Source: an uncultured Erysipelotrichaceae bacterium
Lineage (GTDB): Bacteria; Bacillota_I; Bacilli_A; RF39; UBA660
Reading direction: 5' to 3'
Length of the DNA: 59,023 nt
Assembly: GCA_948442015.1 (NCBI GenBank)
Contig: CAOJRP010000007.1
Span: forward strand, 1-59,023
The position numbers and the translations under genes were made by a program. This document shows, one piece after another, positions 47,766-56,978 of the stretch (the first letter of the stretch is position 1; each line of letters opens with the position of its first letter). The notes below the pieces were generated by a model. The model worked only from the letters and a program-made list of their open reading frames with translations, had not been told where the DNA came from and made no database searches.

Positions 47766-48533
47766 ATGTGTTCTATACAAACAATAAATTTATTATCTAA
47801 AAAAGATATTTTTAGATTATTAATAGATGGTCATGCTAAGTATATAGGACAAGGAAGAACTGCATGTTGTTTTTTATTAAAAGATGGTACAGTTTTAAAG
47901 ATATATAAAGAAACAAGAATTAAAAGAGAACTATTTGAATTATATCCGATGTTAGAACAAGTTAAATTACTTAGTAATTTAAAGAATGGGAGCTATATAG
48001 CTCCTGAAGTGGTTTTTGTTTATGAAAATGAAGTTATTGCATATAAAACAGAATATAAAAATGCTAAGACATTAGCAAAAATAAAGCCATATACGATGGT
48101 TTCTACTATTTTAGTTAACTTAGAAAAGCTTATAGAGGATACATGTTTAATAGGTGAAAAGAAGTTTCGTTTAGGAGATTTGCATGGTAAAAATATACTT
48201 TTTAATGATTTTTTTTATATGATTGACTTGGATTTTGGACATACTATAGAAGAAAGTATAGAAAATGTTAATATAATTAACATTCGTAGTGTAATTAAAT
48301 TAATTTTAGATACTTTATTTGATGTTGAAGATGATGAATTGTTAAAAATTAGTGACCCATCTATTTTTAAGCTTTATGACAAAACTGTATATGAGAACTA
48401 TAAAAATATTTATTCCTTTTTTGATGCTCTACAAGATAGACTAAATGTTTCTGATTTACAAGTTAAAGATTTAAGGTTAAAATATAATGGACTTATTTCA
48501 AAAGAATATAATTCTTACTATAAATCATTTTAA
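47766..48533 (+). CDS. Protein-kinase-like protein
   Basis: 255 residues. AKYIGQGRTACCFLLKDGTV followed by LKIYK has the Gly-rich loop and the ATP-binding Lys of a kinase fold. The catalytic loop reads RLGDLHGKNILFND (His-Arg-Asp replaced by Gly-Asp with a following His-Gly-Lys-Asn, as in aminoglycoside phosphotransferase and RIO-like kinases), and the metal Asp stands in MIDLDFGHT. All key residues are in place. Substrate unknown. Uses ATG 47766 behind AAGGGAG. uvrB follows closely. Confidence 0.72.
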   Translation: MCSIQTINLLSKKDIFRLLIDGHAKYIGQGRTACCFLLKDGTVLKIYKETRIKRELFELYPMLEQVKLLSNLKNGSYIAPEVVFVYENEVIAYKTEYKNAKTLAKIKPYTMVSTILVNLEKLIEDTCLIGEKKFRLGDLHGKNILFNDFFYMIDLDFGHTIEESIENVNIINIRSVIKLILDTLFDVEDDELLKISDPSIFKLYDKTVYENYKNIYSFFDALQDRLNVSDLQVKDLRLKYNGLISKEYNSYYKSF

Positions 48534-50510: not shown

Positions 50511-50821
50511 TGTTATAATAACTCCTCAAAAGAGGGGATAGTTATGTTTTTAATAGGTAAAAAAACAGAAATTATGACAGAACTATATATTCGAGATAAA
50601 AAAGGTACTCTTACCGAAGAATATATTTTGGAAATTTCAAAAAAAAGTCCTTTAGTTGTAGTTCGTTATTTAATTGATAAAACAGAATATCAAGAACTTT
50701 GTTTAGAGTTAATAAAAAAAGATTATGATTTACTAGATGATAGAAATCTTTTAGATAAAATATTTAATAATATTAATACTATAAATTTTGTTCTTGAAAA
50801 TTTAGAAGAAATTCTTAGTTC

Positions 50822-51009
50822 TTTAAACAATGTGGCAATCGCATAAAAAATAGTATTGATAATCTAACCTCAATAAAATAAGGGATTAGTCAAAAATATT
50901 TATATTACAAACTTCATGTAACAAAAATTTACTAAATTGATTTTTTTAAGTATTTATGGGACTTTTTTACTTTGTGTCAAATTTTTATGCGATTGCCTTA
51001 TTTAAACAA
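50822..51009. repeat. 9-bp direct repeat TTTAAACAA flanking the element
   Basis: One copy at 50822-50830 and one at 51001-51009. They are the proposed target-site duplication; loss of one copy with the element restores the gene. Confidence 0.8.
50831..51000. mobile_element. 170-bp MITE-like element with 16-bp terminal inverted repeats
   Basis: GGCAATCGCATAAAAA (50834-50849) and TTTTTATGCGATTGCC (50982-50997) are perfect inverted repeats. The direct repeat TTTAAACAA lies at 50822-50830 and at 51001-51009, directly outside the ends TGT and TTA. A 9-base target duplication with short inverted ends and no coding capacity is the structure of a non-autonomous transposon derivative. No related transposase is present in the window. 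The inner 132 bases have no open frame of note. Confidence 0.8.
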
Positions 51010-52079
51010 CAGAATTTTATTAATCAATCACTTATTATGTTATGCTAAACATAATAATAAAGAACTTTATAAGCTAGTAGCTTATAGCAATGATTTAAGT
51101 ATTCGTTATGAAGTAATGCATTTTTTATCTCAAGAAGATAGAGATTTTTTAAGAGTATTATTTCCTCATATAACTGACTATTTTGTAATTAAAGAAAACG
51201 ATAAAGTAATAGCTAAAATGAAAGAAATTGATGTTTCTATAATAGCAGCCAACTTATTTGATTTTATTTTTGATGTCGAATTATTTACTGAAATTAAAGA
51301 ATTTATCTTTGCTAATTATCCTAAAAACCATTTATTAGGCTTTTTAGCGCAAAATGATGAGTTTGAAGATGATTTATTTCATTTTCACGAGGAAATAGTT
51401 AAGGATTTTGAAAGGTTATATAAAACATCATTTGATTATAAACTTGCTGCAATAGATAAATATGAAGAGTATATTCCAAAAGATGAATATTTGGAATTAT
51501 TTAGAATTTTAAAATTATTTAGGTTTCAAAGAGATGTTTTAGAAGATATATTTAAAAGAGGCATGGGAGAAGATTTTATTCACCTTCTAAAAAAATACTT
51601 GGGAGTTAGTGAAAGTCCTACAATTAGGTATGATAATGGTAGCGTAACAGATGTTTTTGCTATAGGAGATTTTGTCATAAAATTTATTAGTGAAATTCAT
51701 ACTATTTCAGACGCTAAAGAAAGATATTTTCCTTGTTTTTTGGTAAATAAAGTGATTGAAGAAAAATATTACTATGATAAAGATGGAAAGCTACTTGGAA
51801 TACTACAAGTGCAACCAAGATTATATTGCCTTATAGAAGATAAAAATTTAGAAAAATTATTTGAAGAAGAATTAGAACGTTTAGGATATTTCGTTTATGA
51901 TGGTTTAATAGAAAGAAAAAATTTATATTACTTAAATGATTATCATGATGCTGATATAGACGACCCAGAAACATTGCCAGATTGGTTTAAAGAAAATCCT
52001 ATAGTTTTAGTAGATTTAGATTTAATGTTTAGAGTTGAACAAAAAGAAGAGATAGAAAAATTATTATCTTTAAAATAAA

Positions 52080-52105
52080 TAGAAGTACAAAACTTCCTTT
52101 TTTTA
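52080..52105 (+). terminator. Terminator before ppaC
   Basis: GAAGT (52082-52086), ACAAA, ACTTC (52092-52096) and then CTTTTTTT. The stem is short but the T tract is strong. It ends the transcript of the interrupted gene. Confidence 0.65.
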
Positions 52106-52137
52106 TGCTATACTTAAACAAGATAAGGGGTATAAAA

Positions 52138-53703
52138 ATGGCGGTTACTTATATTTTTGGTCATAAAAAACCGGATACTGATGCTGTTTGTTCTAGTATA
52201 GTTCTGTCTTATTTAAAGAATAGTTTAGGAGAAAAAACAGAAAGTTGTATTTTAGGCACAATAAATAAAGAAACAGAATTTGTTTTAAAGAAATTTGGTT
52301 TTCAAGAACCGAAGTTTTTAGATGATGTAAAAGTGCAAATAAAAGATATGCATTTTAATAAAAAAGCCTTAATTGATGAAGATGCTACTATTTTAGAAGC
52401 ATTCAAAAAAATGCATGATTTAGAAGTGACAGGGTTACCTTTAGTTAAAAACAAAATATTAAGTGGTTATGTTAATTTAAAAGATATTGCTAATTATGGT
52501 GTTAATTATATAACAAAAATAGATACTTCATATGAGAATATTATGAATCTTTTAAATGGAAAAAGTATTCTTAAATTTAGTGATGAAATAAAAGGAATTA
52601 TAGATGATAAAATAGCAATTACTAATAATAAAGAAGTAGAGAGTATCTTAAATAATAAACCTCTTCTTTTAATAATTACAAACTCCATAAGATTATCCAA
52701 AGAAGATTTAGCTTTAGCTAAGAAAAATAAAGTAAGTATTATCGAAACTTCTTTAACTCTTTTAAATACGATTAATATAATTAAATTTGTCAATCCTGTA
52801 AGAATTATTAATAACAATAAAGAACCTATTAAATTTTATCTTGATGATGAGCGAACTGACTTTATTGAAATGACCAATAAATATGGCCATACTAATTACC
52901 CGATTGTTAATAGAAGAGGCGAATGTCTTGGGATGATTAGATTAGTAGATATCAATAATTATCAAAAGAAAAAAGTCATCCTAGTTGACCATAATCAACA
53001 AGATCAAACTGTCGATGGAATTGATGAAGCAGAAATTTTAGAAATTATTGACCATCATAATTTAGGAATTATTGGTACTAATAGTCCAATTAGTTTTCGA
53101 ACAATGCCAGTAGGATGTACAAATACAATTCTTTATCAATTATTTAAAGAAAATCATGTAAAAATACCAAAGAATATTGCTGGTTTAATGGCTAGCGCTA
53201 TTATATCTGATACTTTACTTTTTAAATCTCCTACGACAACTGCTTTGGATAAAGAAACTTGCCTAGAGTTATGTAAAATTGCCTCTTTAGATGCCAATAT
53301 ATATGGTATGGAAATGTTTAAAGCCGGTTTTTCTATTAGTGATATGAATAAAAAAGAAATCTTTAATCAAGATTTTAAAACTTATAAAACAAGTAATGGT
53401 GATAATTTAGTAATAAGTCAATTTTTTACAGTGGACTATGAAAGTGTTTTAAGTGAAAAAGAAGAGTTTGTAAGTGTCTTAGATGAAATGCATGATATAT
53501 ATAATTATAAAGTTGCTTTATTATTTGTTACAGATATTTTAGGAAATGCATCATATTTATTTTATAATAAAGAAGCTGAAAGTTTAGTTAGTGAAAGCTA
53601 CAATATTGAAAGTATCTCTGAAGGTTATATTATGCCTAATGTTGTATCAAGAAAAAAGCAGATGTTACCCCCACTTCTTGAATGTCTTGAAAGAAAAAAA
53701 TAA
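52138..53703 (+). CDS. ppaC: Manganese-dependent inorganic pyrophosphatase with CBS-DRTGG insert
   Basis: 521 residues. The DHH core is split: GHKKPDTDAVCSSIVLSYLK at the start, and VDHNQQDQTVDGI and EIIDHHNLG after the insert. The insert (about 65-285) has two CBS halves (LIDEDATILEAFKKMHDLEV, KYGHTNYPIVNRRGECLGMI) around a DRTGG-like domain. In this family, AMP and ADP binding lowers activity and Ap4A raises it, tying pyrophosphate removal to energy state. ATG 52138 follows AAGGGG. A promoter TATACT lies upstream. Confidence 0.93.
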   Translation: MAVTYIFGHKKPDTDAVCSSIVLSYLKNSLGEKTESCILGTINKETEFVLKKFGFQEPKFLDDVKVQIKDMHFNKKALIDEDATILEAFKKMHDLEVTGLPLVKNKILSGYVNLKDIANYGVNYITKIDTSYENIMNLLNGKSILKFSDEIKGIIDDKIAITNNKEVESILNNKPLLLIITNSIRLSKEDLALAKKNKVSIIETSLTLLNTINIIKFVNPVRIINNNKEPIKFYLDDERTDFIEMTNKYGHTNYPIVNRRGECLGMIRLVDINNYQKKKVILVDHNQQDQTVDGIDEAEILEIIDHHNLGIIGTNSPISFRTMPVGCTNTILYQLFKENHVKIPKNIAGLMASAIISDTLLFKSPTTTALDKETCLELCKIASLDANIYGMEMFKAGFSISDMNKKEIFNQDFKTYKTSNGDNLVISQFFTVDYESVLSEKEEFVSVLDEMHDIYNYKVALLFVTDILGNASYLFYNKEAESLVSESYNIESISEGYIMPNVVSRKKQMLPPLLECLERKK

Positions 53704-53704
53704 A

Positions 53705-53938
53705 TTAATTTTCTTGAACACTTTTAATATCTTGTAGTTCAAAACGATTTTTTTGCCCATTTTTGTTTACTTCATCTAAAAACATATCATAAGGTCGACA
53801 CCACAATTTGTTATCACCATATAAAGCTCTATATGCAACCATCTTTTCACAAGTTTCACTATGATAAATTATATCCTCTACAATATATAAATCTCCTTTA
53901 TAGTGTTTATAAATACCTTTAATTTTTATCTCTCTCAT
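53705..53938 (-). CDS. DUF1653 protein
   Basis: 77 residues: IKGIYKHYKGDLYIVEDIIY, HSETCEKMVAYRALYGDNKL and WCRPYDMFLDEV are the DUF1653 landmarks. The fold is a small beta-barrel, role unknown. It is the second of a tandem pair; its paralogue is 14 bases upstream on the same strand. Confidence 0.85.
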   Translation of the reverse strand: MREIKIKGIYKHYKGDLYIVEDIIYHSETCEKMVAYRALYGDNKLWCRPYDMFLDEVNKNGQKNRFELQDIKSVQEN

Positions 53939-53952
53939 ATGAATAAGTCCTC

Positions 53953-54198
53953 CTATTTTACAACACTTTTTATGTCTTGTAATTCAAATCTGTATTTTTG
54001 TTCTACATTTGGATATTTTTCATGGTCAACCTCGCTTAAAAACATATCCATAGGTCTAATCCATAAACTTCCATCTCCATATAATCTTCTATATACTACA
54101 AACTTTTCCTTTGTTTCCGAGTGATTAGCTATATCAACAACTAAGTAATAATCTCCTTTAAAATGCTTATAAATTCCATTAATTTTTAGCTCTCTCAA
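53953..54198 (-). CDS. DUF1653 protein, tandem paralogue
   Basis: 81 residues with the same plan as its neighbour: [52 protein letters not shown]. It is a bit longer by an insert ([10 protein letters not shown]) before the shared [10 protein letters not shown] end. The pair arose by tandem duplication. AAAGAAG lies before the ATG. Confidence 0.85.
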
Positions 54199-54348
54199 TT
54201 TTATTTCATCTTCTTTCTAAATATAGTTTATCAAAAAATGCTAATTATTAAAATAGTAATAATTTAAAGTTAAGTACATAATTTATCATTAGTTGATGTT
54301 GTATAAATTTTATAAAAAATATATAATAAATGCCAAAGGAAAGATTGT

Positions 54349-54480
54349 TTGAACGAGATAGGTAAATTAAAAGAAGAATATATAGTTTTAAAAAAGAAAA
54401 TTGAAGAATTATATGATAAACAATTTAATTTATATAAAAATATGATAGCTGAAGAAGGTAGTTCTTATAAACATATTTAG
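54349..54480 (+). CDS. Small coiled-coil protein, TTG start
   Basis: 43 residues. AAAGGA (54335-54340) lies eight bases before a TTG at 54349, and a TATAAT-like box is seen at about 54322. The sequence MNEIGKLKEEYIVLKKKIEE has a heptad pattern. A terminator hairpin follows directly after the TAG. A complete little transcription unit with no known family. Confidence 0.45.
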   Translation: MNEIGKLKEEYIVLKKKIEELYDKQFNLYKNMIAEEGSSYKHI

Positions 54481-54481
54481 T

Positions 54482-54509
54482 AAAGATAAAAATAAAACTA
54501 TCTTTTTTT
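54482..54509 (+). terminator. Terminator after the small coiled-coil gene
   Basis: AAGATA (54483-54488) pairs with TATCTT (54499-54504) and the T run continues. The stem is weak but the position right after the stop is convincing. Confidence 0.55.
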
Positions 54510-54553
54510 ATAATATTTTCTAATTATGGTACAATAATATTAGGTGATTATAA

Positions 54554-55306
54554 ATGAAAGCATTAATTACAGGTGCAAGTAGTGGTATCGGAAGAGACAT
54601 GGCTTATTACATGAGTAGTTTAGGGTATGACTTGTTTTTAGTTTCCCGTGATAAAGAAAAGTTAGAAGAAGTTAAGAGTAAATGTCCTACTAAAGTGACT
54701 ATAATTCCTTTAGATTTAATTAAAGAAGAGAACTGCTTTAAGCTTTATGAAAAAGTTAAAAAAGAAAACATCGATGTCTTAATAAATGGAGCGGGATTTG
54801 GTTTATTTGGAATGACTTATAAAACAGATTTAGAAAGAGAATTAGAAATGATTAACCTAAATATCAAAGCGGTTCATATTTTAACTAAATTATTTTTAAG
54901 CGACTTTGTTAAACGAGATAGTGGCTATATTATGAATATTGCTTCGAGTGCTGGGTTTTTATCTGGACCAAGGCTTAATACTTACTATGCTACGAAAAAC
55001 TATGTTGCTAAATGGACAATGGCTATTTATGAAGAACTAAGGCATAAAAAAAGTAATGTTCACATATGCACTTTATGTCCTGGACCTGTAAGAACTAATT
55101 TTAATAAAGTAGCTGGAGGACATTTTGCTATTAAAGAAGCAAGTAGTGGGTATGTAGCTAAATATGGGATTGATAAAATGTTTCAAAATAAACTCATAAT
55201 AGTTCCGAAATTTAGTGTTAAGTTAGGCTTATTTTTAAATCGTTTTATTCCTTGGAAACTAAGCCTAAAAATAACTTATAAGATTCAAGAAAGGAAAAGT
55301 AAATAG
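54554..55306 (+). CDS. Short-chain dehydrogenase/reductase
   Basis: 250 residues, intact. Cofactor loop ITGASSGIGRDMAYYM, NAG motif INGAGFGLFG, catalytic Ser in NIASSAGFLSG, and YYATKN as YxxxK. The C-terminal PGPVRTNF fits the classical group. An extended basic tail (RFIPWKLSLKITYKIQERKS) may touch the membrane. The substrate is unknown. AGGTG precedes the ATG. Confidence 0.9.
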   Translation: MKALITGASSGIGRDMAYYMSSLGYDLFLVSRDKEKLEEVKSKCPTKVTIIPLDLIKEENCFKLYEKVKKENIDVLINGAGFGLFGMTYKTDLERELEMINLNIKAVHILTKLFLSDFVKRDSGYIMNIASSAGFLSGPRLNTYYATKNYVAKWTMAIYEELRHKKSNVHICTLCPGPVRTNFNKVAGGHFAIKEASSGYVAKYGIDKMFQNKLIIVPKFSVKLGLFLNRFIPWKLSLKITYKIQERKSK

Positions 55307-55310
55307 AAGT

Positions 55311-56027
55311 ATGAATATTGATTTTAATAGTATAATCAAAAAAGCAAGTGGAACAATTAACAATATAGGAAATTCTGCTTTAAAGAGTGTTAATAAAATG
55401 GTTGCTAATATCCCCTTAGAATATGCTTATGTGGGATTTTTGGTAAGTAAAGGAATGACTTTAGAAAATAACAATTTCAATAATCAAGTAATAAGAGATT
55501 TGTTTTTATATACTTATGTATCCTTAAAACCATCTTTTTTTGCTTTAATGGAAGATGGAACATATAAAGATTTGGCAAGTGGAGTAAAATACCAAAAGTT
55601 ATCCTATGGTGACTTAATTAGTAAACATATAGCTAGGGGAGAAACGATTGATATGACCCATTATCCGCAAGTTAGTAAAAATAATTATATTGGAATATTT
55701 AATTTAACAAAGTTTGAAAGTATTGTTGATATTGTTGTCGATAGAGAATTAAATTCAAAAGAAATAAATTTAAAAGTTGCTACTAAAAAGAAAAAAGCTT
55801 ATACATTAGTGGAAATGGAAGGAATATATAGAAGATACAAAAAAGAAGAAAGTACAGTTAATACTTTTATTGTTCCACCAGTATTAATGGATGAATTAGA
55901 TAATATTAAAACAGTTTATACTTTAGAAAGTAACTTCATGTATGAATACTATGGAAAAACTGATGAAGAAATCTATAATGATTTACTTGTTAAATCTAAT
56001 GAATATTTAAAAATAAAAGGTAAATAA
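55311..56027 (+). CDS. Unknown 238-residue protein upstream of whiA
   Basis: Starts four bases after the SDR stop. IIKKASGTINNIGNSALKSV at the beginning looks like an amphipathic helix; the rest is mixed, with NNYIGIFNLTKFESIVDIVV and EMEGIYRRYKKEESTVNTFI. No membrane helix or signal peptide. It may be cotranscribed with whiA, 21 bases on. No family known to me. Confidence 0.6.
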   Translation: MNIDFNSIIKKASGTINNIGNSALKSVNKMVANIPLEYAYVGFLVSKGMTLENNNFNNQVIRDLFLYTYVSLKPSFFALMEDGTYKDLASGVKYQKLSYGDLISKHIARGETIDMTHYPQVSKNNYIGIFNLTKFESIVDIVVDRELNSKEINLKVATKKKKAYTLVEMEGIYRRYKKEESTVNTFIVPPVLMDELDNIKTVYTLESNFMYEYYGKTDEEIYNDLLVKSNEYLKIKGK

Positions 56028-56048
56028 AAATTAAAAAGGAGGCATAAT

Positions 56049-56978
56049 ATGACTTTTACGATAAGAGTTAAAGAGGAGATGTCAAAACTTAGCTATAATC
56101 GTTTAGAAGCAACTTGTGAGTTAGCGGCATTTCTAAGATATAATTCCCAAATAAAAAAAGATGCTATAAGTATAACAATTGAAAATGCCTCTGTTGCAAG
56201 AAGAATATATATTTTAACTAAAGAATTATTTAATATCAACTTAAAAATTATTGTTCGTAATCAAAAAAGATTTCGGATAAAACAAATCTATATTTTAGAA
56301 ATCAAAGAGAAAGTAAATACTATTTTAGAAACATTAAATATTTATAAAGAGGGGAAAAAAATTTTACCAGAAGATTATTTTTTAGAAACAGAAGAAGAAA
56401 AACTTTCCTTTATTAGAGGCTTATTTTTAGCAAGTGGTAGTTTAAATGACCCATCTACTAGTGGGTACCATTTAGAATTTACCGTTTTATCCAAAAAGGA
56501 AGCTATGTTTATAAGTAAATTACTAAAAGACTTTTATATTGTGGCTAAGATACTTAAAAGAAATAATCATTATATGGTTTATATTAAATCAGCAGAAATG
56601 ATTAGTGATTTACTAAAAATATTTGGAGCTACTAATTCTTTATTTTATTTCGAAGATATAAGAATTTATCGTGACCACAAAAATATGGTCAATCGTCTTA
56701 ATAATTGTGAAATTGCTAATGCTGAAAAAACAATTAAAACGGGACTTAAACAATTAGAAACAATTGCTTATTTAGAAGAAAATGATTTAATAGATTTACT
56801 AGATGAGCGAATTAAAGAAGTAATTGATTACAGAAAAAAATATCCTGAAACATCTTATAATGAACTTGCCGAAATTATCTCTTTAGAAACTGGAAAACAA
56901 ATTGGTAAATCGGGAATAAATCATTATTTTATAAAAATGAATAAGTTAAAGGAAAATCATCAAAAACAAAATAATTAA
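56049..56978 (+). CDS. whiA: WhiA sporulation/division regulator homologue
   Basis: 309 residues. TFTIRVKEEMSKL begins the N-terminal LAGLIDADG-like part (FIRGLFLASGSLNDPSTSGY followed by HLEF), and the C-terminal HTH (YRKKYPETSYNELAEIISLE) is complete. WhiA binds DNA and, in Bacillus, supports cell division and chromosome segregation without being a clear transcription factor. rapZ and yvcK, usual neighbours, are not in the window. AAAGGAGG precedes the ATG. Confidence 0.93.
   Translation: MTFTIRVKEEMSKLSYNRLEATCELAAFLRYNSQIKKDAISITIENASVARRIYILTKELFNINLKIIVRNQKRFRIKQIYILEIKEKVNTILETLNIYKEGKKILPEDYFLETEEEKLSFIRGLFLASGSLNDPSTSGYHLEFTVLSKKEAMFISKLLKDFYIVAKILKRNNHYMVYIKSAEMISDLLKIFGATNSLFYFEDIRIYRDHKNMVNRLNNCEIANAEKTIKTGLKQLETIAYLEENDLIDLLDERIKEVIDYRKKYPETSYNELAEIISLETGKQIGKSGINHYFIKMNKLKENHQKQNN

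Follow-up and report, generated by a model that had tools for sequence, protein, structure and literature searches.

A probable MITE sharing its ends with ISAs1-type insertion sequences splits a gene adjoining uvrB in an uncultured bacterium

The closest precedent for the element described here is MITEAba12 of Acinetobacter baumannii (PMC6382973): it is 113 bp long, AT-rich and non-coding, has 16-bp repeats and 9-bp duplications, and was found inserted in the gene hns. Its ends are common to a co-resident insertion sequence (IS), ISAba12, and its core is without similarity, as in the present case. The two differ in the parent, which for MITEAba12 is ISAba12, and in that the movement of MITEAba12 was seen in real time, whereas here it is deduced from sequence. 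The MITEs of Anabaena sp. 90 (PMC3542288) are also short and multicopy and split genes, turning them into pseudogenes; they are placed in type II, since none of the insertion sequences of that genome has ends like theirs, whereas here the ends are shared. ISAs1-family insertion sequences have the same transposase family, 9-bp duplication and 16-bp repeats as the elements described below. Their direct repeat is given as 10 bp and their inverted repeats typically start with CAGGG (PMC11946415), whereas the ends found here start otherwise and the MITE has no transposase. A limited check of the open literature turned up no link between a MITE and the ISAs1 family. The principle is already known, and the element is another example of a familiar kind of mobile element.

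The DNA stretch analyzed (the window, 59,023 nucleotides) is contig 7 of a draft genome of 1.497 Mb in 48 contigs, 89.5% complete. It contains two 16-bp terminal inverted repeats, exact reverse complements of each other, between two copies of a 9-bp target duplication (Table 1); the original prediction had described both exactly. The boundaries of the element were set by comparison of five copies: it extends three bases beyond each 16-bp repeat, giving TGT or TAT, a 164-bp core and TTA. The 170 bp have no coding capacity, with neither a transposase nor any other gene inside.

Table 1. Features of the element and of the interrupted gene (window positions)
Feature	Position	Strand	Basis
Left target-site duplication, TTTAAACAA	50822..50830	.	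Sequence
Non-autonomous element (MITE), 170 bp, TGT + 164-bp core + TTA	50831..51000	+	Comparison of five copies whose 9-bp duplications differ
Left terminal inverted repeat, GGCAATCGCATAAAAA	50834..50849	+	Same sequence ends full-length ISAs1-type elements
Right terminal inverted repeat	50982..50997	-	Reverse complement of left repeat
Right target-site duplication, TTTAAACAA	51001..51009	.	Sequence
5' part of interrupted gene	50544..50830	+	95 full codons and 2 bases; aligns to N-terminus of intact homologues
3' remainder of interrupted gene	51010..52078	+	Open to stop; aligned with 8 intact homologues

A search for further copies, as had been proposed, identified four complete ones in the same genome, on contigs 10, 14, 25 and 31 (C10, C14, C25 and C31), with 164/164 core identity to the window copy. 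A perfect 9-bp duplication was present at 5/5 complete copies and was different at each: TTTAAACAA in the window, TATGATTTC in C10, AGAAATTTA in C14, AATAAAAAA in C25 and AAAACTACT in C31. An origin by chance, already judged very unlikely from the window, is excluded by the four identical cores together with the five different duplications. The left outer triplet varied among the copies, being T(A/G)T ahead of the core and TTA; TGT was limited to the window and contig-25 copies, which therefore probably have a more recent common source. The copies on contigs 10, 14 and 31 lie between reading frames, and that on contig 25 overlaps the end of one frame. Contig 32 carries a diverged partial copy, identical in 135/163 aligned columns, whose right end was not found. 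The identity of the copies suggests that the insertion was recent.

The 16-mer was also found at seven further sites of this genome: six contig ends and, near the end of contig 31, one site adjoining the MITE. It was followed there by DNA other than the MITE core, and four of the sites were of the 'left' and three of the 'right' type. Left and right ends could be paired exactly by their outer 9 bp (C18 with C45, C23 with C47 and C29 with C31), the duplications of the three pairs being TAGGCAAAA, TAGGAGGAT and AAAACTACT. One left/right pair in a second genome of the genus was also matched by a 9-bp duplication. Since the contig ends pair in this way, we conclude from the sequence that several copies of a full-length IS were collapsed or dropped in the assembly. 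Of the matching transposase, the right end in this genome carries the last codons of the C-terminus only. A remnant with 20% identity, found in the same genome by searching with the transposase of a relative, is distant and was rejected as the parent.

With at most one mismatch, the 16-bp end occurred in 55/386 genomes of the bacterial family. Complete elements in other genomes were approximately 1.25 kb long, and their transposases matched PF13808, PF01609 and the NCBIfam ISAs1 equivalog NF033564, scoring 299-331 bits against an NCBIfam cut-off of 70 bits. One complete relative, L105, has a 1266-bp core and the duplication GTTGCAGCT; it is identical to the ends of the genome under study at 52/52 positions on the left (C18) and 93/97 on the right (C31). 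Its transposase, whose frame is broken near the end, matched NF033564 with an E-value of 2.8e-89, and those of other complete elements with 5.7e-99 and 1.3e-97. The repeats (16 bp) and the duplication (9 bp) are inside the ranges of the ISAs1 family, which has inverted repeats of 14-22 bp and a direct repeat of 8-10 bp. The ends begin TAT/TAA-GGCAATCGC, also written TAT/TAAGGCAATCGC; as they do not start with CAGGG, the parent was named ISAs1-type by its transposase. The full-length IS that was to be looked for is present as contig-end fragments in this genome and complete in relatives, and its ends, left without a family in the original prediction, can be assigned to ISAs1 by the transposase of these relatives, the ends themselves being non-canonical.

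MITE and IS elements are alike over approximately 25-31 bp at each end, and no similarity was found between the MITE core and the IS interior. In two other genomes there are MITEs with 178-bp cores (L101 and L110); their ends are the same and their 9-bp duplications perfect, and L110 is related to the window MITE along its length (131/181 aligned columns; score 75 versus at most 53 with shuffled cores). The window element is short, multicopy and non-coding, has inverted repeats and a duplication at each complete copy, and has its ends and duplication length in common with the resident full-length element, seen as contig-end fragments. It was classed as a MITE because it has the same ends and 9-bp duplications as the full-length ISAs1-type element. 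In viral contigs the 16-mer was present as 11 single copies, none with a partner end, and these were taken as chance; phage and plasmid collections gave no match.

Two side loci carry the same ends. At L074 1747-2999 (G240:C4:49246-50498), ISAs1-type ends with a perfect 9-bp duplication, TTCATTCTA, enclose an HTH-VanZ-like gene that replaces most of the transposase, of which approximately 190 bp remain at the 3' end; judged by its sequence, this element is a passenger-gene cassette. The 53%-identical homologue in genome G001 is not located between such ends. At the ends of contigs 31 and 29 (L134 224-511, G000:C31; L135, G000:C29), a MITE and a full-length IS appear to stand in tandem in the same orientation, with the 9 bp AGTAGTTTT at all three junctions. 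That the same target was hit twice by chance is very unlikely. Tandem insertion of MITE and IS with a shared duplication was rejected as a general habit: one such junction was found in 386 genomes.

In the window, the insertion lies at codon 96 of a 451-codon gene adjoining uvrB and hits its N-terminal helical part. Removal of 179 bases, the element together with one copy of the duplication, restores one frame of 451 codons plus stop, as had been noted. With the insert present, the frame of the 5' part extends into the element, where it meets a stop at 50844-50846, after 100 codons. Because the added 179 bp are not a multiple of three and bring in-frame stops, the interrupted gene is most likely an inactivated pseudogene. 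In the same-genus genome G001, the syntenic gene directly follows uvrB and has a single target and an empty site. This orthologue (L087, G001:C77, around 1100-2140) has decayed separately, through the loss of single bases at three points and a large internal deletion. That G001 lost this gene through different mutations suggests that the gene is dispensable.

Homologues in other genera and a paralogue in the same genome are single frames of approximately 450-500 residues spanning both fragments. The orthologue alignment that had been proposed therefore gives one gene and not two. A Pfam and NCBIfam search of the split protein yielded nothing significant. The C-terminal part of a structural model of the paralogue (mean pLDDT 85.5) found mostly protein kinases in the PDB, at E-values of about 0.005-0.05, and an uncharacterised phage protein at 3e-4. 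The split protein is helical, with a C-terminal domain that is probably kinase-like, to judge from these weak fold matches; of the kinase-like gene originally proposed, the split of one gene is borne out, and the kinase identity is plausible, with fold matches of low significance. Genome G013 carries three paralogues of this helical and kinase-like protein in tandem (C2, about 52090-56510; L093, L096 and L088), which suggests that this family is variable and expanding. Window positions 47766-48533, just upstream of uvrB, encode a second protein of kinase-like appearance, judged by eye; it is small and matched nothing in Pfam or NCBIfam.

After the junction, the 3' frame runs open all the way to its stop, and its kinase-like C-terminal region is intact. 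This could mean that the gene is alive: a start in the element would give a truncated kinase-like protein from the 3' part, and the split would have been kept as a new architecture. Starts in the right frame do exist within the element, TTG at 50972 and ATG at 50987, the latter in agreement with the shorter protein originally suggested; no recognisable ribosome-binding site is visible before either of them, however, and a promoter scan found no forward promoter in the element and one opposite-strand site over its left end. The open frame is not proof of selection, since the identical cores of all five copies make the insertion look too recent, and the gene has decayed in the only same-genus relative. 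We consider this explanation unlikely. Unlikely too, in our estimate, is the broader proposal that the ISAs1-type set of the bacterial family comprises full-length elements, several MITE lineages and passenger cassettes and that the split leaves a translated stand-alone kinase-like part whose start comes from the element's own end.

The stable pairing of the terminal repeats (-34.9 kcal/mol, z -3.5) would also suit a non-mobile structured element, such as a regulatory RNA hairpin or terminator, between two real genes. This fold is largely the product of the inverted repeats, however, and the repeat occupies five sites that are unrelated and carry separate 9-bp duplications; the relative has an empty site, and the homologues of other genera are intact single genes. 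Duplications and empty site together rule this explanation out, leaving it a negligible probability.

The best explanation, to which we give a probability of about 95%, is that the gene is split by a 170-bp bacterial MITE that has nothing of an ISAs1-family IS but the ends and would be moved by the transposase of such an IS. Movement in trans by a resident ISAs1-type transposase is most likely, and the ends shared with the contig-end fragments support the original interpretation on this point; we infer it, since the full resident transposase gene is absent from the draft assembly, where element ends alone are present. The transposase from the resident full-length copies would recognise the shared 16-bp ends, cut AT-rich targets with a 9-bp stagger and insert the element there, producing the 9-bp duplications. 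In the window, such an insertion would disrupt the gene with loss of its function.

For an uncultured, small-genome lineage, these findings document a MITE that was apparently active in recent times, together with its probable parent. Multi-copy insertion sequences vanish from draft assemblies of this kind, and hence MITEs may be their only complete trace.
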